Below are positions 5,540 through 51,728 of a stretch of DNA of 64,000 nucleotides, in pieces. This stretch comes from an uncultured Clostridia bacterium (GTDB lineage Bacteria > Bacillota > Clostridia > Christensenellales > Aristaeellaceae): the NCBI GenBank assembly GCA_947167215.1, contig CAMVHE010000004.1, forward strand, positions 1 through 64,000. The letters are read 5' to 3'. Position 1 is the stretch's first letter. Each line of letters starts with the position of its first letter. The notes under the pieces were generated by a model. It saw only the letters and a list, made by a program, of their open reading frames with translations. It was not told the DNA's origin and searched no databases. Both the position numbers and the translations under genes were made by a program.

Positions 5540-6523
5540 ATGAAAAAGATCATCCTTACGCTGGCTCTCTTAGCCCTCGTCGTCTTCTCTTTTACCGCTA
5601 CCGCAGAAGACTCCCGTACCTTCCGTATTGCACTCCAGAACGGTGAAAAGCATCCCCTCTGCATGGGCGTTGCGAAATTCGGAGAAATCCTCTCTGAGAA
5701 AACCAACGGCCGTCTCACCCTGGACATCTACTACAGTGCTTCCCTCGGTGACAAGGCCACCACTGCACAGGGCCTTCAGACCGGAACCATTGACGGTGCC
5801 ATGCTCATGAGCGGCGTTATCGCCGATTATGGCTGCGATGACCTCCGCGTCTTCACCCTTCCCTATCTTTTCGATTCTGTCGCCCATGCCCGTGCCTTTG
5901 TAAAGAGCGAAGCCGGACGCGCACTGCTGGATAAGGTGCAGTCCGAGGGAACCGGCATCGTCTGCATTGGTGCCTATCAGGAGTCTTCCCGCAACTATTT
6001 CTTCACAAAGAAAGCGGTTAAGCACCCCTCCGATATGAAAAACCTCCAGATCCGCTGCCAGGAAGGCTCCGTCTACTATGATGCCGTGGAAGCCATGGGT
6101 GCCTATGCCCAGTCAGTTGCATTCTCCGAGCTTTATTCCGCGCTGCAGTCCGGCGTGGTGGACGGCGCAGAACAGCCCCTGTCCGGATTTGTGAACAACG
6201 CTTTCCCGGAAGTTGCCAAGTACTATGTGCTGGATGGTCACGAAACCAGCCCCAACCTGATTCTGTTCTCCGAGATGACCTGGAACAGCCTCACCGATGA
6301 GGATCGTGCAGTGATTCTTGAGGCAATGGAAGAGTCCGTTCCCTATTTTGAAGAACTCTCCGACAGCAAGGATGCCGAATATCTGCAGCAGATCAAGGAT
6401 TCCGGCGTCGAAGTCATCGATGTGGACGTAGCCGAATGGCAGGAAGCCTGCTCCGCAGTGTATGACAAATACGGCAAGGAATTCGATGATATCATTTCCG
6501 CAATCAAGGCCACGGCCTATTGA
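5540..6523 (+). CDS. dctP: TRAP transporter solute-binding protein (DctP family)
   Basis: Secreted substrate-binding subunit of a tripartite TRAP transporter, 327 aa. A signal peptide (MKKIILTLALLALVVFSFTA, cleavage near residue 22) is followed by a DctP/TAXI-like fold. The family's conserved ligand-binding arginine is probably in the LQIRCQEG segment, and the sequence SALQSGVVDGAEQP is typical of the family. Ligands of DctP proteins are usually organic acids or sugar acids bound through the arginine-carboxylate pair. The ribosome site AAAGGAG (5525-5531) fits the start. It heads the dctPQM-sulfatase operon and is separated from dctQ by a hairpin. Confidence 0.94.
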   Translation: MKKIILTLALLALVVFSFTATAEDSRTFRIALQNGEKHPLCMGVAKFGEILSEKTNGRLTLDIYYSASLGDKATTAQGLQTGTIDGAMLMSGVIADYGCDDLRVFTLPYLFDSVAHARAFVKSEAGRALLDKVQSEGTGIVCIGAYQESSRNYFFTKKAVKHPSDMKNLQIRCQEGSVYYDAVEAMGAYAQSVAFSELYSALQSGVVDGAEQPLSGFVNNAFPEVAKYYVLDGHETSPNLILFSEMTWNSLTDEDRAVILEAMEESVPYFEELSDSKDAEYLQQIKDSGVEVIDVDVAEWQEACSAVYDKYGKEFDDIISAIKATAY

Positions 6524-44465: not shown

Positions 44466-44494
44466 TTGCATTTCTCCATTGTCAATGATATACT
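44466..44494 (+). promoter_or_regulatory. Promoter of the aromatic amino acid operon
   Basis: TTGCAT (44466-44471), 17-bp spacer, TATACT (44489-44494). Transcription would begin near 44501, leaving a compact leader with a ribosome site GGAGG at 44511-44515. Confidence 0.8.
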
Positions 44495-44524
44495 TTCCGC
44501 ATATTGACACGGAGGAATCCCATC

Positions 44525-44599
44525 ATGAAGAACATCTTCTCCTTTGCACGATTTTACGGCTTTACCGGAGGGCAAAGTCTCATTTTTGTGCGTGTATAA
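44525..44599 (+). CDS. Phenylalanine-rich attenuator leader peptide
   Basis: A 24-residue frame preceded by GGAGG at 9 bases. It starts MKNIFSFARFYGFTGG and has Phe at positions 5, 7, 10, 13 and 21, plus Tyr at 11. It ends one base before a sequence that can form an antiterminator, and a terminator follows 27 bases later. This is the expected layout of a ribosome-stalling sensor for charged tRNA-Phe. No homologue is known to me; the call rests on composition, position and the paired RNA structures. Confidence 0.85.
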   Translation: MKNIFSFARFYGFTGGQSLIFVRV

Positions 44600-44658
44600 G
44601 GAGTATTTGTTGATAGGGTTATGATGCTCCCGCCGCACAGGCGGGGGCTTTTCTTTTT
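44600..44658 (+). promoter_or_regulatory. Attenuator: antiterminator and terminator upstream of aroF
   Basis: Two exclusive helices are visible. Antiterminator: GGAGTAT (44600-44606) pairs with ATGCTCC (44624-44630), allowing one G-U. Terminator: GCTCCCGCC (44626-44634) pairs with GGCGGGGGC (44640-44648), then TTTTCTTTTT. They share bases 44626-44630. A ribosome stalled at Phe codons 5-13 would leave 44600-44606 free and favour antitermination; a ribosome at the stop codon (44597-44599) would cover it and favour termination. Confidence 0.85.
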
Positions 44659-44687
44659 GGTGTTAATAGGAAAGAGAGGATAACAGT

Positions 44688-45701
44688 ATGATTATTATCA
44701 TGAAACCGGAGGCAACCGCCCAGCAGATCGACGACCTTTGCGATAATCTGGAATCCAGGGGGATGACCGTTCAGCGCAATTCCGGCGTGGATTGTACCGT
44801 TCTCGGCGTCATCGGCGACGTAGGCAGCCTTGATCCCCATGATTTTCTGACGCATGAAGGCGTGGAGCGTGTCATGCCGGTTTCCGAGCCTTTCAAAAAG
44901 GCGAACCGCAAGTTCCATCCTCAGGACAGTGTCATCGACTGCAAAGGAGTTCCGGTTGGCGGACGCAAGCTTGTGCTTTTTGCCGGTCCGTGCTCGGTAG
45001 AAAACTCCGAACAGATTACAGACACCGCACTCAAAGTCCGTGCCAGCGGCGCGGATATTCTCCGCGGTGGCGCATATAAGCCGCGTACCTCCCCCTATTC
45101 CTTCCAGGGCCTGAAGCTTCACGGTCTGGAACTGCTCGAAGAAGCATCCTCCATCACCGGAATGCCTATCTGTACGGAAATCATGAGTCCCAAGCTGGTG
45201 GAAGAATTTGACCGCCGCGTCGATGTGATTCAGGTCGGCGCAAGGAACATGCAGAACTTCGACCTGCTTTCGGAGCTCGGAAAGACCCGCAAGCCCATCC
45301 TTCTCAAGCGCGGCATGAGTGCCACCGTCTATGACTGGCTTCTGAGTGCCGAATACATCATGGCAGCCGGCAACCCCAATGTCATCCTCTGTGAACGCGG
45401 AATCCGGACCTTTGAGAACTATACCCGCAACACGCTGGATCTTTCGGTTATCCCCGCCATCAAGCGCCTCAGCCATCTTCCGGTAATTGTTGACCCCTCC
45501 CACGCAACCGGGCTCAGCTGGATGGTGGAGCGGATGTCTCTTGCTGCCATTGCTGCCGGTGCAGACGGATTGCTGGTGGAAGTCCATAACGATCCGCCCC
45601 ATGCGCTTTCAGACGGTGCCCAGAGTCTTACCCCGGATCAGTTTGCCCAGCTGGTGGGTAAGATTCACGGCATGGCCCCGATCGTGGAAAGAACCCTATG
45701 A
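44688..45701 (+). CDS. aroF: 3-deoxy-7-phosphoheptulonate (DAHP) synthase, type Iβ
   Basis: 337-aa enzyme that joins phosphoenolpyruvate and erythrose 4-phosphate, the entry to the shikimate pathway. An N-terminal ferredoxin-like domain (1-70) of the Thermotoga type is followed by the TIM barrel with the metal Cys in FAGPCSVEN, KPRTSPYSFQG and a late DPSHATGL. The N-domain suggests feedback inhibition by Tyr or Phe. It is the first enzyme gene behind the attenuator and overlaps tyrA by 4 bases. Confidence 0.97.
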   Translation: MIIIMKPEATAQQIDDLCDNLESRGMTVQRNSGVDCTVLGVIGDVGSLDPHDFLTHEGVERVMPVSEPFKKANRKFHPQDSVIDCKGVPVGGRKLVLFAGPCSVENSEQITDTALKVRASGADILRGGAYKPRTSPYSFQGLKLHGLELLEEASSITGMPICTEIMSPKLVEEFDRRVDVIQVGARNMQNFDLLSELGKTRKPILLKRGMSATVYDWLLSAEYIMAAGNPNVILCERGIRTFENYTRNTLDLSVIPAIKRLSHLPVIVDPSHATGLSWMVERMSLAAIAAGADGLLVEVHNDPPHALSDGAQSLTPDQFAQLVGKIHGMAPIVERTL

Positions 45702-46576
45702 AAGTGATGTTTATCGGATTAGGGCTGATTGGCGGGAGCATGGCACTGGCACTGCGCGGGGATTCTTCCCTGCAGGTCACCGCCGTTGAACCGGATTTAT
45801 ACAGCCGCAGCGAAGCCCTCAGGGTTGGCGCGGTCAACGCGGCCTGGCCTTCCGCAGATGCCGCTCCCCTTGCCGAACAGGATCTGATCCTCCTCTGCCT
45901 TCATCCCAACGCAGCCGTTGACTTCATCTCCACTTATGGCGGACAGCTTTCCCCCAATACCGTGCTGACCGATGTCTGCGGCGTAAAGGTGCCGATATTT
46001 CAGGCTCTGGACAGCCTGCCGACGTACCAGTTTTCCTTTATTGGCGGCCATCCCATGGCCGGACTGGAGAGCGGCGGATTTTCCAATGCCACCCCTTACC
46101 TTTTCCGCGGCGCTCATTATATTCTGGTTCCCCATCCAAGCACCACCGACAGCGCCAGAACCATTCTGACCCATATGGCGCTGCAGATCGGATGCTGCGA
46201 CGTCATCGAATCCACCCCTGAGCTGCATGATCACTGTATCGCCTATACCAGCCAGCTGATGCATATTCTCGCCCTCGCTCTCTGCGATCAGCCGCTGTTC
46301 AGCCAGAGCGCGGGATATGAGGGCGGCTCCTTCCGCGGTGCCACCCGGGTTGCCGCGCTGGATCCGAACCTGTGGTGCGAACTCTTTGATCTGAACCGGA
46401 TTTCTCTGGCAGATCAGATCGATGCGCTTTCTGAACAGCTGCAGAAGTACAGCAGCCTGCTGCGCAGTGGAAGCCGGGAAGAACTGCTTCAACAGCTGAC
46501 CGAAAGCAGCGAACACAAAAAGAATATTGACCGGCAGAAGGGACAGGGCCGTCCGCGTTCTCCCCTTTATACCTGA
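45698..46576 (+). CDS. tyrA: Prephenate dehydrogenase
   Basis: 292-aa NAD(P)+ enzyme that makes 4-hydroxyphenylpyruvate from prephenate. It begins with the Rossmann motif FIGLGLIGGSMALALRG, and the catalytic His is in GGHPMAGLESGG. No ACT or chorismate mutase domain is fused, so it is the short type. The start overlaps the aroF stop as ATGA. The next gene, aroB, is 12 bases away. Confidence 0.95.
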   Translation: MKVMFIGLGLIGGSMALALRGDSSLQVTAVEPDLYSRSEALRVGAVNAAWPSADAAPLAEQDLILLCLHPNAAVDFISTYGGQLSPNTVLTDVCGVKVPIFQALDSLPTYQFSFIGGHPMAGLESGGFSNATPYLFRGAHYILVPHPSTTDSARTILTHMALQIGCCDVIESTPELHDHCIAYTSQLMHILALALCDQPLFSQSAGYEGGSFRGATRVAALDPNLWCELFDLNRISLADQIDALSEQLQKYSSLLRSGSREELLQQLTESSEHKKNIDRQKGQGRPRSPLYT

Positions 46577-46588
46577 GAGGAGGCTCCA

Positions 46589-47671
46589 ATGTATCAAGTA
46601 AACGTCATGGCACCGGGACAGGACTGCAGCTATCCGATCATCATCTCCCCGAACCTGCTTTCCGAATGCGCTCCCTGTCTTTCCTCCCTGGAAGGACACA
46701 CCGTCGCAGTCATTGCAGATGAGCATACCGGTCCGCTGTATGGCAGTACTGTGGAAAATGCATTGCGCACTGCCGGGGCCACGCCCTGCCTCTTCGAAGT
46801 CCCTGCCGGGGAAACCAGCAAAAGTGCCCTCCAGTACGACCGCATTATTGATTTCCTGCTGGAATCGCATGTGACGCGCTCAGACACTGTCATTGCCCTG
46901 GGCGGCGGCGTGATCGGAGACCTGACCGGCTATGCCGCAGCCACCTATCTGCGTGGCGTCCCGTTTATCCAGATTCCAACCACCCTGCTGTCCCAGGTGG
47001 ACTCTTCCGTGGGCGGAAAGGTCGCATTGAATCATCCCAAGGGAAAGAACCTTCTCGGTGCGTTCCTCCAGCCAAAGCAGGTTTTGATTGATACAGGCAC
47101 CCTCTCCACGCTGGACGACCGGCAGATTGGTGCAGGACTTGGCGAAGTCATCAAGACCGCCTGTATTTCGGATGAAGACTTCTTTTCCTCCTTCGAAAAA
47201 TGGCAGGGAAGAAAAGCCATGCTGCCGCATCTTCCGGAGATCATTTCCCATTGTTGCACATTCAAGGCCGGCATCGTCCGCCAGGATCCTCTTGACCACG
47301 GTCTTCGCATGATCCTGAACTTCGGACATACCCTTGCCCATGCCCTTGAAAATTCCATGGGATATGGTACACTGCTGCATGGGGAAGCGGTCTGTATCGG
47401 CATGGTTTATGCCTCCCGCTTCGGCCAGCTTCTCGGAATTACGCCGGAAGGAACCGATATCCGCATCAGCAGGCTGCTGGAAGCCTATGACCTGCCGCAT
47501 GAAATGCCGGATAACCTGGCTCCTGAACAGCTCCTGCAGGTCATGGCTCTCGATAAGAAAGCGAGCGGAAAAATACTCCATCTCGTTCTGCTGGACCGCA
47601 TCGGCAACGCCGTCATTCATCCTCTCCCCTTTTCTGAATTGTCCACTCTTCTATACAGGTCCTGGAGGTAA
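46589..47671 (+). CDS. aroB: 3-dehydroquinate synthase
   Basis: 360-aa NAD+ and metal-dependent enzyme that cyclises DAHP to 3-dehydroquinate. The nucleotide motif IALGGGVIGDLTGYAAATYLRG, the active-site KVALNHPKGKN and LNFGHTLAHALE with a metal His are present. GAGGAGG precedes the start. aroB is followed by aroA after 1 base. Confidence 0.97.
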   Translation: MYQVNVMAPGQDCSYPIIISPNLLSECAPCLSSLEGHTVAVIADEHTGPLYGSTVENALRTAGATPCLFEVPAGETSKSALQYDRIIDFLLESHVTRSDTVIALGGGVIGDLTGYAAATYLRGVPFIQIPTTLLSQVDSSVGGKVALNHPKGKNLLGAFLQPKQVLIDTGTLSTLDDRQIGAGLGEVIKTACISDEDFFSSFEKWQGRKAMLPHLPEIISHCCTFKAGIVRQDPLDHGLRMILNFGHTLAHALENSMGYGTLLHGEAVCIGMVYASRFGQLLGITPEGTDIRISRLLEAYDLPHEMPDNLAPEQLLQVMALDKKASGKILHLVLLDRIGNAVIHPLPFSELSTLLYRSWR

Positions 47672-47672
47672 T

Positions 47673-48968
47673 ATGGATAAAATCGTCTCTCCCTCATCTT
47701 TATCCGGTACCCTTGCTGTCATCCCCAGCAAATCCGCATCCCATCGTGCAGTGATCCTGGCTGCCATGGCCAGAGGAGAAATGGAAATCGAACCCCTGCA
47801 GCTTTCGGAAGATGTGAGTGCCACCCTGTCCTGCTGCAGACAGCTCGGCCTCTGCAGCGGGGCCACACTGATCGATGCAGAGGAGCCGGGATTCGTCCGG
47901 GCCCGGATTTCCGGCAGTCTGAGCCGTCCGGTTTCCCGGGCCATGCGCACCCTGGACGCCGGAGAATCCGGTTCCACCCTGCGCCTTCTGCTTCCCCTTG
48001 CCCTTGACGGCCGCGGACCGGTGCGCTTTCTGGGACGCGGGCGGCTCATGCAGCGCCCCCTGACCGTCTATGAAGAGCTGTTTACGGATCAGGGAATCTC
48101 CTGGGCCCAGCGCGGAAATGAGCTAACGGTGAACGGCCGGTTATCCGGAGGGATTTATTCCGTTGCCGGAGATATCAGCAGCCAGTTCATCTCCGGGCTG
48201 CTGCTTGCCCTCCCCAGGCTGGATACGGACAGCACCATCCAGCTCACCACTCCGCTGGAAAGTGCTCCCTATGTGGAGATGACCCGCTCCATACAGGCGC
48301 TGTTCGGCATTCATTCCGCATGGAGCCGGGACGGCAGCGCACTGCATATCAAAGGAAATCAGACAGTCCGCAGCCCCGGTTCCCTGCGCATCGAAGGGGA
48401 CTGGAGCCATGCCGCATTTTATCTGGTAGCAGGGCTGATATCCCAGAACGGTCCGGTCAGTCTGACGTGCCTCGACAACCAATCGGTCCAGGCCGACCGG
48501 CAGATCGTCGATATTCTTCGGGACATGGGCGGAGAAATCCAGCTGGATAACGGCCTGGTGACCGCATTCCCTTCCTACCTCCATCCCATTGAAGTCAATG
48601 TCTCCCAGTGTCCTGACCTGGTCCCCATTCTGGCCGTTGCCATGGCTGCAGCCCATGGGGAGAGCAGGATTACCGGAGCCGAACGCCTCCGCTATAAGGA
48701 GAGCGACCGGCTTTCCGCCATGGCAAATGCCCTGAATGCATGCGGTTCCATCTGTCAGGAGACCCCTGACGGCCTGATCATTCGGGGCGGGTTCCCCCTT
48801 CGGGAAGCAAGCATCGACGGATGTCATGATCATCGAGTCGTCATGGCCATGGCAGTTGCCTCTGCCCTCTCCCGCGGAAATTTCATCCTGTCCGATTCGG
48901 ATTCCGTCAGCAAATCCGCTCCTTCTTTCTGGCATGAATTTGAACTTCTGGGAGGAAAAGCATCGTGA
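47673..48968 (+). CDS. aroA: 3-phosphoshikimate 1-carboxyvinyltransferase (EPSP synthase)
   Basis: 431-aa enzyme that adds the enolpyruvyl group to shikimate 3-phosphate. Family motifs are PSKSASHRAVILAAM (phosphate binding), LDAGESGSTLRLLLPLAL near 88 and RYKESDRLSAMANAL near 340. The LDAGESGST form has Gly-Glu-Ser where glyphosate-sensitive enzymes have a Gly-Asn-Ala-Gly-Thr, so sensitivity class is best left open. The start follows CTGGAGGTAAT. It overlaps aroC by 4 bases. Confidence 0.96.
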   Translation: MDKIVSPSSLSGTLAVIPSKSASHRAVILAAMARGEMEIEPLQLSEDVSATLSCCRQLGLCSGATLIDAEEPGFVRARISGSLSRPVSRAMRTLDAGESGSTLRLLLPLALDGRGPVRFLGRGRLMQRPLTVYEELFTDQGISWAQRGNELTVNGRLSGGIYSVAGDISSQFISGLLLALPRLDTDSTIQLTTPLESAPYVEMTRSIQALFGIHSAWSRDGSALHIKGNQTVRSPGSLRIEGDWSHAAFYLVAGLISQNGPVSLTCLDNQSVQADRQIVDILRDMGGEIQLDNGLVTAFPSYLHPIEVNVSQCPDLVPILAVAMAAAHGESRITGAERLRYKESDRLSAMANALNACGSICQETPDGLIIRGGFPLREASIDGCHDHRVVMAMAVASALSRGNFILSDSDSVSKSAPSFWHEFELLGGKAS

Positions 48969-50086
48969 GTGCAACCATAGGAACCCATTTCCGGATTACG
49001 GTATTCGGAGAATCCCACGGTCCGGCAATCGGCGTCACCATCGACGGCCTGCCCGCCGGCTTTCCTCTTGATCCGGAACAGATTGCAAGGCACATGAACC
49101 GCCGTGCTCCCGGTCAGGATCCGACGGCCACCGCACGCCGGGAAAAGGATGAAGTACGCATTCTTTCCGGATGGTATAATGGAAGAACTACAGGAGCCGC
49201 ACTGACAGGAATCATTGAGAACACGAATACCCGTTCCTCCGATTACCAGGAACTCTCCCATGTCTTCCGCCCCGGCCATGCAGATTACTCCGCATTTGTA
49301 AAATATGCCTGCTTTAACGATGTGCGCGGCGGTGGGCAGTTTTCAGGCCGTCTGACTGCTCCCCTGGTCTTCGCCGGGTCGGTTGCCCGCCAGCTTCTTG
49401 CTTCAAAAGGGATTGCCATCGGTGCCCATATTCTCAGCATCCAGAACGAAGAGGATCTGCACTTTGATGCCCTTCCCATGACAAAAGAGGCTCTGGATTC
49501 TCTCACCGCGCTTTCTTTCCCCGTTCTCCATCCCGAAAGCGAGGCCCCGATGCGCAGCGCCATCCTGAAGGCCAAAGAGAACGGAGACAGTGTCGGAGGC
49601 CGCATTGAATGCCTGGCGCTCGGGGTTCCTGCCGGAATCGGCTCCCCCCTGTATGCCTCCGTGGAAAGCACCTTTGCAGCGCTTGCCTTCTCTGTACCGG
49701 GAGTCAAGGCCGTCTCCTTCGGTGACGGCGACCACATCAGCGAAATGACCGGCAGCACAGCCAATGATGAGATGTCCTATGATGAGCAGGGAAACATCGT
49801 CTGTCTGACCAATCATAACGGCGGCGTCATCGGCGGAATCACCAATGGCATGCCCGTCCGCGTCGTTGTAGGAATCAAGCCGACGCCCTCCATTGCCCGT
49901 CTGCAGAAGAGCGTCGATGTCCGTCTCCATAAGGACGTGGATCTCTCCGTTCACGGCCGTCATGATCCCTGCATCGTTCCCCGCGCCGTGGTTGTCATTG
50001 AAAGCATTCTCGCCATAACCCTCTGCGATCTTATCATGGAAAATACAGCAATGCATGCCTTCATGCAGGAGGGAGTTAACCCATGA
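48965..50086 (+). CDS. aroC: Chorismate synthase
   Basis: 373-aa FMN enzyme that makes chorismate from EPSP. It starts at GTG 48965 overlapping the aroA stop as GTGA and begins GTHFRITVFGESHGPAIG, the family N-terminus. Other hallmarks are RRAPGQDPTATARREKDEV, RPGHADYSAFVKY and RGGGQFSGRLTAP. Reduced FMN is required. It overlaps pheA by 4 bases. Confidence 0.97.
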   Translation: MSATIGTHFRITVFGESHGPAIGVTIDGLPAGFPLDPEQIARHMNRRAPGQDPTATARREKDEVRILSGWYNGRTTGAALTGIIENTNTRSSDYQELSHVFRPGHADYSAFVKYACFNDVRGGGQFSGRLTAPLVFAGSVARQLLASKGIAIGAHILSIQNEEDLHFDALPMTKEALDSLTALSFPVLHPESEAPMRSAILKAKENGDSVGGRIECLALGVPAGIGSPLYASVESTFAALAFSVPGVKAVSFGDGDHISEMTGSTANDEMSYDEQGNIVCLTNHNGGVIGGITNGMPVRVVVGIKPTPSIARLQKSVDVRLHKDVDLSVHGRHDPCIVPRAVVVIESILAITLCDLIMENTAMHAFMQEGVNP

Positions 50087-51201
50087 ACGTTCCAGATCTC
50101 ACAGAAAGCCGTAAGCGGATCGATGCCATAGACCGGGAACTGGTCCGCCTTTTTGAAGAGCGCATGGAAGTATCCCGGGATGTCGCCCGCTACAAGCAGC
50201 TCCACCATCTGGAAGTACTCAACACCGCCCGGGAAGAGGCAGTCCTGAAGAGCCGGGCAGAACTGGCAAAGGACCCCTACCTCAAGGAAAGCGTTGTCTC
50301 CTTTTTTACGGAAATCATGCGGCTTTCCAGGCAGGAACAGTACCGTTTTCTGGAAAGCGGTCTGAAAGCAGACTGCATCGGATACATGGGAATTCCCGGA
50401 GCATTTTCCGAGAGTGCCACCATCGGCTTTTTCGGAGCGGAGATCCGCCGCCGGTGCTATGACAGTTTTGAGTCCGTCTTTGCCGCAGTGGCAGATGATC
50501 AGGTACGCTACGGCGTCGTTCCGGTAGAAAACTCTTCCTCCGGAGCCATCCATGCGGTTTATGATCTCCTCGGGAAATATGCCTGCCACATCGTCGGTGA
50601 GCAGCTGGTCCATGTGGAGCACTGCCTGCTCGGGCTTCCCGGAAGCAGGCTGGAGGATATTCAGAAGGTCTACAGTCACGAACAGGGTTTTGTCCAGTGC
50701 CAGCCTTTCTTGAAACAGCATCCCCAGATGACAGCCATTCCCTACTACAATACTGCCATCGCCGCAAAGCACGTTGCAGAGATGCAGGACTCTTCCTGCG
50801 CTGCTATCGCCTCCACACTTGCAGCAGAGCATTACGGCCTTACCGTTCTGGCTCCTTCCATTCAGTCTTCCACCACCAATGCAACCCGCTTCTTTATCGT
50901 CAGCGCATCTCCCCGCCCCATCGGCGTTGCCGATAAAGCAACCATTACCTTTTCCCTCAAGCATGCCCGGGGCACCCTTCAGCGGGCACTTTCGAGCTTT
51001 GTGGCGCTGGGGATGAACCTCACCCACATCGAATCCCGTCCGATACCGGGAACAAACTGGGAATACTGTTTTTATGTGGACCTCACCGGGGATCTTTCGC
51101 AGAATAACCTTCGTGTCCTGATGCAGTCTCTTGAAGCTGATGTGGCCTCCTGCAGACTGGTGGGCACTTATGCCGCAGCGAAAGAAGAGACGGTCCCATG
51201 A
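50083..51201 (+). CDS. pheA: Chorismate mutase / prephenate dehydratase (P-protein)
   Basis: 372-aa bifunctional enzyme. An N-terminal AroQ chorismate mutase (residues 1-88; SRKRIDAIDRELVRLFEERM) is followed by prephenate dehydratase (about 98-275) ending in the TTNATRFFIV motif. An ACT domain follows (about 290-365) with the Phe-binding ESRP motif in LTHIESRPIPG. This makes phenylpyruvate and is normally inhibited by phenylalanine. It fits the Phe-type attenuator upstream. Overlaps aroC and aroK by 4 bases each. Confidence 0.97.
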   Translation: MNVPDLTESRKRIDAIDRELVRLFEERMEVSRDVARYKQLHHLEVLNTAREEAVLKSRAELAKDPYLKESVVSFFTEIMRLSRQEQYRFLESGLKADCIGYMGIPGAFSESATIGFFGAEIRRRCYDSFESVFAAVADDQVRYGVVPVENSSSGAIHAVYDLLGKYACHIVGEQLVHVEHCLLGLPGSRLEDIQKVYSHEQGFVQCQPFLKQHPQMTAIPYYNTAIAAKHVAEMQDSSCAAIASTLAAEHYGLTVLAPSIQSSTTNATRFFIVSASPRPIGVADKATITFSLKHARGTLQRALSSFVALGMNLTHIESRPIPGTNWEYCFYVDLTGDLSQNNLRVLMQSLEADVASCRLVGTYAAAKEETVP

Positions 51202-51728
51202 AGAACCCGCTTTATCTGATTGGCATGATGGGATGCGGCAAAAGCAGCGTCGGCAGCAGACTGGCTGAAATACTGCAGGTGTCCTTTGTCGATCTGGATT
51301 TTCTCATTGAAGAACAGGCAAAAATGCCGATTTCTGACATCTTTGCCCGCTTTGAAGAAGACGGTTTCCGCATGCGTGAAACGGCAGCACTCCGAAGCAT
51401 CAGCACGCAGCCTTCCGTCATTGCAACCGGCGGAGGAATCATTACCAGAGAAGAAAACATCCGTATCATGCAGGAAACCGGTCTGGTTATCTGGCTGCAG
51501 CGCCCCCTTGAACGAATCCTTGCGGATATTCCGGACAGCGGACGGCCTCTGCTGGCTTGCAACAAAAAAGAGCGCATGTATGCGCTCTATGATCAGCGGA
51601 AGTCCCTCTATGCCCGTGCTGCAGGCATTATCTTTGAAAGTCTCGATACCGTGGACGCTACGGCAACCGCTCTGTCCCGGCGGCCGGAGATTATTTCTCC
51701 GTCCGGCAGCACAGAAAAAAAAGATTGA
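51198..51728 (+). CDS. aroK: Shikimate kinase
   Basis: 176-aa P-loop kinase that phosphorylates shikimate. Walker A GMMGCGKSSVGSRLAE at residues 8-23, the shikimate-binding DLDFLIEEQ, TGGGII motif and the lid Arg region near 115-120 are present. Last gene of the operon, overlapping pheA as ATGA. aroD and aroE, needed for the two middle steps, are not in the operon. Confidence 0.95.
   Translation: MKNPLYLIGMMGCGKSSVGSRLAEILQVSFVDLDFLIEEQAKMPISDIFARFEEDGFRMRETAALRSISTQPSVIATGGGIITREENIRIMQETGLVIWLQRPLERILADIPDSGRPLLACNKKERMYALYDQRKSLYARAAGIIFESLDTVDATATALSRRPEIISPSGSTEKKD

Follow-up and report, generated by a model that had tools for sequence, protein, structure and literature searches.

The leaders of pheA (pheL) and pheST in Escherichia coli are known Phe attenuators: a Phe-rich leader ORF, a four-segment switch and a terminator stand before a gene of the Phe pathway. 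The same arrangement is found in the stretch of 64,000 nucleotides analysed here (the window), but whereas the E. coli leaders precede pheA or pheST, the leader of the window precedes the DAHP synthase gene that heads a seven-gene operon in Clostridia. We consider it very probable that this site is a classical ribosome-mediated transcription attenuator of the seven-gene aromatic operon. The T-box (RF00230) is alike in responding to uncharged tRNA, but there the tRNA binds the RNA directly and, unlike in the aro leader, no leader ORF takes part.

The preliminary description of the site held leader-peptide attenuation to be best known from Proteobacteria, but leader peptides have already been proposed in bacilli, C. 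glutamicum and Acholeplasma. In C. glutamicum, aroF is reported to have a Phe-Tyr-Phe leader peptide as part of a proposed attenuator (PMC4046766); the likeness, an aromatic leader before a DAHP synthase gene, is one of description, and C. glutamicum belongs to the Actinobacteria, unlike the Clostridia of the window. The motif uORFC-13-1, from Acholeplasma and environmental sequences, has been described with 24 representatives exclusively before aroF; its parts are a possible promoter, an RBS, a terminator and a short ORF with one or more Phe codons (PMC8632094); as far as the text description goes, the parts and the aroF target are the same as in the window. In bacilli, His leader peptides have been proposed before hisZ/hisS*, and this is likewise proposed leader-peptide attenuation in Firmicutes, but with His codons before hisS-family genes instead of Phe and Tyr codons before aroF (PMC2965389). 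With leaders of bacilli, C. glutamicum and Acholeplasma already proposed, the mechanism itself is not new, and there are precedents for aroF as its target. Among mostly openly accessible papers, we recognised none that describes clostridial attenuators with aromatic leaders before aroF, and the literature searched showed neither their spread across Clostridia nor a pair of DAHP synthases divided between a Phe and a Tyr leader.

Control region and operon of the window

The control region comprises 222 nt (44466-44687) between a divergent gene and aroF, in a genome of 3.83 Mb and 204 contigs. The leader ORF, the helices and their conservation, the order of the parts and the operon were all computed, and their coordinates are collected in Table 1. 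The site had been described as having a strong promoter, but its strength lies in the extended -10, which reads TGATATACT; the -35 TTGCAT is weak, with 3/6 consensus matches, and the promoter was absent from the list of a generic scan. TGn with TATACT or TATAAT stands upstream of the leader in 20/20 loci of the genus, the window's included. The leader of 24 codons with five Phe was described correctly. Its peptide is MKNIFSFARFYGFTGGQSLIFVRV, the first four Phe codons span 44537-44563, and thus a short ORF with a Shine-Dalgarno sequence has Phe at 5/24 codons before an operon that makes Phe and Tyr. In all 20 genus loci GGAGG lies at most 16 nt 5' of the leader ATG.

Table 1. Features of the aro control region and operon, and a T-box elsewhere in the window
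Feature	Position	Strand	Detail and basis
Promoter	44466-44494	+	TTGCAT 44466-44471, 17 nt, TGA-TATACT (extended -10, 44486-44494); sequence and genus conservation
Shine-Dalgarno GGAGG of leader ORF	44511-44515	+	Sequence
Leader ORF	44525-44599	+	ATG...TAA, 24 codons, 5 Phe and 1 Tyr, stop TAA 44597-44599
Protector hairpin 1:2	44545-44592	+	44545-44551 with 44586-44592, 44558-44563 with 44574-44579; hides segment 2; RNAalifold, 20 leaders
Segment 2 (antiterminator 5' side)	44587-44603	+	TGTGCG 44587-44592, GGAG 44600-44603; inverted repeat I7, duplex energy
Segment 3 (antiterminator 3' side; terminator 5' arm and loop)	44627-44639	+	CTCC 44627-44630, CGCACA 44634-44639
Intrinsic terminator 3:4	44626-44658	+	Stem 44626-44648, then TTTTCTTTTT
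aroF, DAHP synthase	44688-45701	+	NF006421 and TIGR01361, over cut-off
tyrA, prephenate dehydrogenase	45698-46576	+	Best NCBIfam matches, all under cut-off
aroB, 3-dehydroquinate synthase	46589-47671	+	TIGR01357
aroA, EPSP synthase	47667-48968	+	TIGR01356
aroC, chorismate synthase	48965-50086	+	TIGR00033
pheA, chorismate mutase/prephenate dehydratase	50083-51201	+	Best NCBIfam matches, under cut-off
aroK, shikimate kinase, last operon gene	51198-51728	+	Best NCBIfam matches, under cut-off
T-box RF00230, 93.3 bits	59885-60091	-	Before ileS-like gene (isoleucyl-tRNA synthetase, named by eye)

The seven ORFs of the operon overlap or stand at most 13 bases apart, and the operon ends in pheA-aroK as described earlier, with best NCBIfam matches that are under the cut-off for both. 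The suggestion that the whole shikimate trunk is controlled from this point holds for aroF, aroB, aroA, aroC and aroK (plus tyrA and pheA), but aroD and aroE were not found among the seven ORFs.

A short aromatic ORF might also stand by chance ahead of an ordinary 5' terminator, and about 1% of the shuffles of the region do yield a similar call: when the 450 nt before aroF were dinucleotide-shuffled, 26/2000 gave an aromatic leader with terminator, as did, by the same rule, 18/2000 shuffles of the 222-nt region. The single window alone is thus about a 1% chance event and modest evidence, and it is conservation that makes the case convincing. Since 20/20 genus loci have the leader before the same gene, and leaders recur across the class, chance is ruled out by conservation and has next to no probability.

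Alternative helices and the proposed switch

The fold of 44500-44690 reaches -65.5 kcal/mol (z -3.97), and 0/200 shuffles were as good. In the window, TGTGCG 44587-44592 has two alternative partners, either segment 1 (44545-44551) or CGCACA 44634-44639 (I7), and GGAG 44600-44603, directly 3' of the leader stop codon, contributes four pairs with CTCC 44627-44630. The terminator scan gave 9 pairs, 8 of them G-C, for the stem 44626-44648. The intrinsic terminator stands between the leader and the first structural gene, the protector hairpin 1:2 overlaps the ORF, hiding segment 2, and, because the antiterminator uses the 5' arm and the loop of the terminator, the antiterminator excludes the terminator. 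The parts are therefore in the order needed for attenuation and the two helices are mutually exclusive, as had been proposed. The 2:3 duplex of the window has -15.9 kcal/mol, with 1/300 shuffles of segment 3 as good, and a p of 0.055 over a wider segment 2. A generic test of hairpin and ORF overlap gave a weak excess (0.55 vs 0.48 in the genus, 0.48 vs 0.41 outside it).

Folding with constraints was used to represent the ribosome. With the bases at the conserved Phe codon blocked and segment 4 absent, 13 pairs of 2:3 form in the window, and across the genus 2:3 reaches 6 pairs under a stalled ribosome, segment 4 absent, in only 8/20 loci. The terminator forms in 20/20 genus loci when the ribosome stands at the stop codon, and also when there is none. 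Once the transcript is complete, the terminator is favoured in 20/20 even with a stalled ribosome, and therefore the switch must be kinetic and decided during transcription. In known attenuators, the choice between the helices is likewise made during transcription.

From these elements we infer where transcription starts, that ribosomes translate the leader and stall on it, and how the kinetics and the response to amino acids would run. Transcription would begin just 3' of TATACT, and a ribosome would start on the 24-codon leader. When Phe-tRNA (and secondarily Tyr-tRNA) is charged, the ribosome would reach the stop at 44597 and cover segment 2, the terminator 44626-44648 would form and RNA polymerase would leave. 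A ribosome stalled at the first four Phe codons would instead cover segment 1 and leave segment 2 free, and the freed segment 2 would pair with segment 3 while segment 4 has still to be transcribed, so that the terminator is pre-empted and aroF-aroK are transcribed. If the leader is not translated, hairpin 1:2 would hold segment 2 and the terminator would form.

Conservation within the genus

A search with AroF covered 60 related genomes and gave 21 same-genus loci with a close orthologue, the window included. One of them (L006) lies so close to a contig edge, with 64 bases upstream, that it could not be judged, which leaves 20 loci with enough upstream sequence, and the leader is present in all 20. 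The invariance of CGA-TTT (Arg-Phe) in 20/20 leaders is to be read with the selection of the genus loci by a motif containing it, L006 being the sole one of the 21 without the motif. RNAalifold, with no structure supplied, found hairpin 1:2 and the terminator in the 20 leaders, with 28 consensus pairs, in 10 of which both sides have changed together one or more times. In hairpin 1:2, 97.0% of cells are paired (at most 54.9% in slid versions), and double changes occur in 13 cells where shuffles give 5.6 and 0/500 reach 13, although two of the five covariation measures were weaker (double-change pairs reached by 48/500 shuffles, pair types by 89/500). For the terminator, 98.6% of cells are paired in the 20 loci, with 5 double-change pairs against 1.3 in shuffles (0/500). 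The antiterminator has 93.5% of its cells paired, where slid versions have at most 54.1%, but its covariation in the genus was not significant (1 double-change pair, score reached by 51/500 shuffles), and a wide-region duplex test gave no excess in the genus (mean z -0.02, 1/20 at p at most 0.05). The antiterminator is thus the weakest conserved element inside the genus.

The covariation check in relatives that had been suggested earlier thus came out in favour of hairpin 1:2 and the terminator, which covary, and found the antiterminator conserved, with no significant covariation. Since relatives keep both the leader frame, in 20/20 genus loci, and the helices, with 28 consensus pairs, the earlier reading is supported. 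Its label of a Phe-type attenuator suits the dominance of Phe, which exceeds Tyr in 19/20 genus leaders, but the type is mixed, the 20 leaders having 98 Phe and 38 Tyr in total. In frame, 136/465 codons of the genus leaders are aromatic; the other two frames have 15 and 75. Length differences inside the leader ORFs are whole codons. Frame +1 is stop-free in 16/20 leaders, and 8/21 single-base variants are synonymous where 25% are expected, so that the codon changes by themselves are no proof of translation. A single genus leader (L011) lacks a stop at the usual place, and its ORF continues for five codons.

A covariance model built from the 20 leaders gave one match each in 20/29 genus genomes, all before aroF; these are its training loci, recovered by construction, and nothing else matched in the 29 genomes. 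Five of the nine genomes without a match (G003, G006, G010, G012, G022) have no match to the window-type AroF, three (G004, G015, G016) have AroF matches of about 55% identity only, and one (G001) is the contig-edge case. Across the order the model matched 2/200 genomes, one of them the window's own, and nothing convincing was found beyond the genus; the other match (L146, E 9e-4) has no aro gene within the 3.2 kb examined. Similarly, the genus leader profile had no significant relative among the 40986 short frames taken from the named loci described below, its best match (E 0.77) lying on the other strand and not being an aroF leader.

As the hairpin is strongly conserved and covarying at the RNA level, and has a symmetric 6x6 internal loop, it could be thought of as a ligand-binding RNA, an aptamer for an aromatic metabolite in which the ORF is incidental. 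The CGA-TTT in 20/20 and a genus codon pattern that is not clearly protein-like would fit this as well. However, the codons of the internal loop vary between relatives, its 5' side having AGC, TAC, TTT, ACG or ACA and its 3' side several variants. At the aro leader every Rfam family stays below its gathering score (best E 0.49), the genus model has hardly any match in the 200 order genomes, and other clostridial leaders keep the aromatic ORF, the Shine-Dalgarno sequence and the terminator. We regard an aptamer as very improbable. Nor did Rfam at gathering scores match any of 16 named loci or of 13 upstream regions of a DAHP synthase paralogue.

The genome of the window has 14 T-box matches, 6 of them above the curated score, which include T-boxes before tyrS and pheS (targets over the cut-off), one before a TrpX-like transporter protein (below the cut-off) and, inside the window, the one before the ileS-like gene of Table 1. 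With T-boxes before pheS and tyrS, a T-box or a protein-controlled (TRAP-like) leader could be considered for the aro operon too, but the Rfam scans gave no match to RF00230 at the aro leader, and a T-box-like motif was seen in only 1/80 named aroF upstream regions. A T-box at the aro leader is ruled out by sequence, and we give this class of leaders almost no probability. Judged from these scans, the cell has T-boxes at its disposal and appears not to use one for the aro operon.

Aromatic leaders across Clostridia and a second DAHP synthase

Outside the genus, we studied the named loci, the best 80 of a longer list of close AroF relatives, of which 2 are genus members and 78 are others. An aromatic ORF preceded by a Shine-Dalgarno sequence and followed by a terminator stands before aroF in 43/78 non-genus loci, against 0/78 reverse complements and 2/390 dinucleotide shuffles. 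Before other ORFs, a slightly looser rule found 7/1072, two of them before genes that read by eye as aroB and aroK. This leader-plus-terminator rule replaced a binomial filter on aromatic content, which had passed 21/78. A locus of another genus (L023) has no leader upstream. The 43 leaders contain 256 Phe, 170 Tyr and 23 Trp, and both synonymous codons are used for Phe and for Tyr. The end of the leader pairs with the 5' arm of the terminator beyond shuffles (mean z -2.08, 23/42 at p at most 0.05; -0.46 in the reversed control); this test used 42 of the 43 loci, as a stricter terminator rule found no terminator in L039.

The order of the residues in these peptides is conserved beyond composition. 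For 35/46 leaders, at most 5/100 self-shuffles scored as high when their own cluster was left out, with a shared core of about FYFSxGYF; for this set, a peptide that may be a membrane-protein fragment (L079) was left out and four others (L024, L026, L027, L028) were added. Such a core would fit a peptide that itself stops the ribosome on free Phe or Tyr or on a pathway intermediate, by the nascent-peptide arrest of which TnaC is an example. The core fits the genus leaders poorly, however, with at most 5/100 shuffles scoring as high in 5/20, the conserved residues of the genus leaders also fall in paired RNA, and arrest at high amino acid gives the wrong sign for a biosynthetic operon unless it is wired differently. 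Arrest is, in our estimate, very improbable at this site.

A profile of 25 leader peptides (A2), run on 291 genomes of the class in six frames at E of at most 0.01, matched 49/291 genomes from 31 genera, with one match each. Of these 49, the 30 best loci were inspected. All 30 have a terminator and an aromatic-pathway gene downstream, the first being aroF in 27, aroB in 1, tyrA (then pheA) in 1 and pheA in 1. Ten of the 30 share at least 80% identity with a training peptide, including 4 exact copies, and 16 share less than 60%; these 16 stand before aroF (14), tyrA (1) and pheA (1). Pairing of 2:3 in the 30 matches had a mean z of -1.98, with 18/30 at p at most 0.05 (reversed -0.65), and in the 20 that are less than 80% identical the mean z was -1.25, with 9/20. 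The profile gave 0 matches at E 0.01 in the window's own genome, and on sequence grounds the genus leader does not appear clearly homologous to the wider clostridial family.

In a search of the phylum with the leader profile, 13/398 genomes matched at 0.001. Among 13 further loci from the phylum search, 10 leaders stand before aroF, 1 before aroB and 1 (L189) before an ACT-domain-like ORF; L184 has neither a leader nor an aro gene and was taken as a false match. In L177, the ORF rule found no leader, though a terminator and aroF come after.

Several single loci have an aromatic leader before another gene. An aromatic leader with a terminator stands before aroB, and not aroF, near 1315 (+) in L045 (Clostridium puniceum) and in L149 and L188. 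In Pelosinus fermentans, one stands before an aroK-like gene (L084, minus strand, near 6246), and L165 and L172 have aromatic leaders before tyrA and pheA, respectively. It seems that the aromatic leader moves between aromatic genes (L084, L165, L172). In one genome (G877), an aromatic leader before aroF (L179) lies about 2 kb from a second one, which precedes the ACT-domain-like ORF (L189).

The genus also has a paralogue of DAHP synthase, 54-58% identical to the AroF of the window, at a separate site; the window's own genome has one DAHP synthase match only. The ORFs after the paralogue are, by eye, not recognisable as aro genes in L203, L204 and L205. A short leader, chosen by eye among the listed ORFs, was found in 12/16 paralogue upstream regions examined (L190-L200 and L207-L209 among them), and the other 4 had none. 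All 12 leaders contain Leu-Tyr, and together they have 39 Tyr, 21 Phe and 1 Trp. Tyr is the more frequent in 8 leaders and equals Phe in 4, and none has more Phe than Tyr; these counts, like those of the window-type leaders, treat related sequences as separate. By a perfect-stem rule, a terminator follows 10/12. In L197 and L198 the paralogue leader stops early and a shared stretch, ACGGGTTGTTTG, comes after the stop, which suggests that this stretch is kept as RNA and not as peptide.

We tentatively propose, at somewhat less than even confidence, that a deep family of aromatic leader peptides in Clostridia controls the entry into the shikimate pathway, and that the two DAHP synthases of the genus have different leaders, one anchored at Phe by CGA-UUU for the operonic enzyme and one anchored at Tyr by Leu-Tyr for the second enzyme. 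If this is true, two attenuators reading two tRNAs would do the isozyme specialisation. In E. coli, the specialisation of the DAHP synthase isozymes is obtained with repressors.

The two isozymes, with their different leader codon signatures, make a case that can be put to the test, and the leader genes are an example of what an annotation length cut-off would miss. The finding would also show one genome reading the same tRNA in two ways, with a T-box for pheS and a leader peptide for the aro operon, and would make ribosome-mediated attenuation a frequent control of aromatic synthesis in Clostridia, where this control is usually described through T-boxes.
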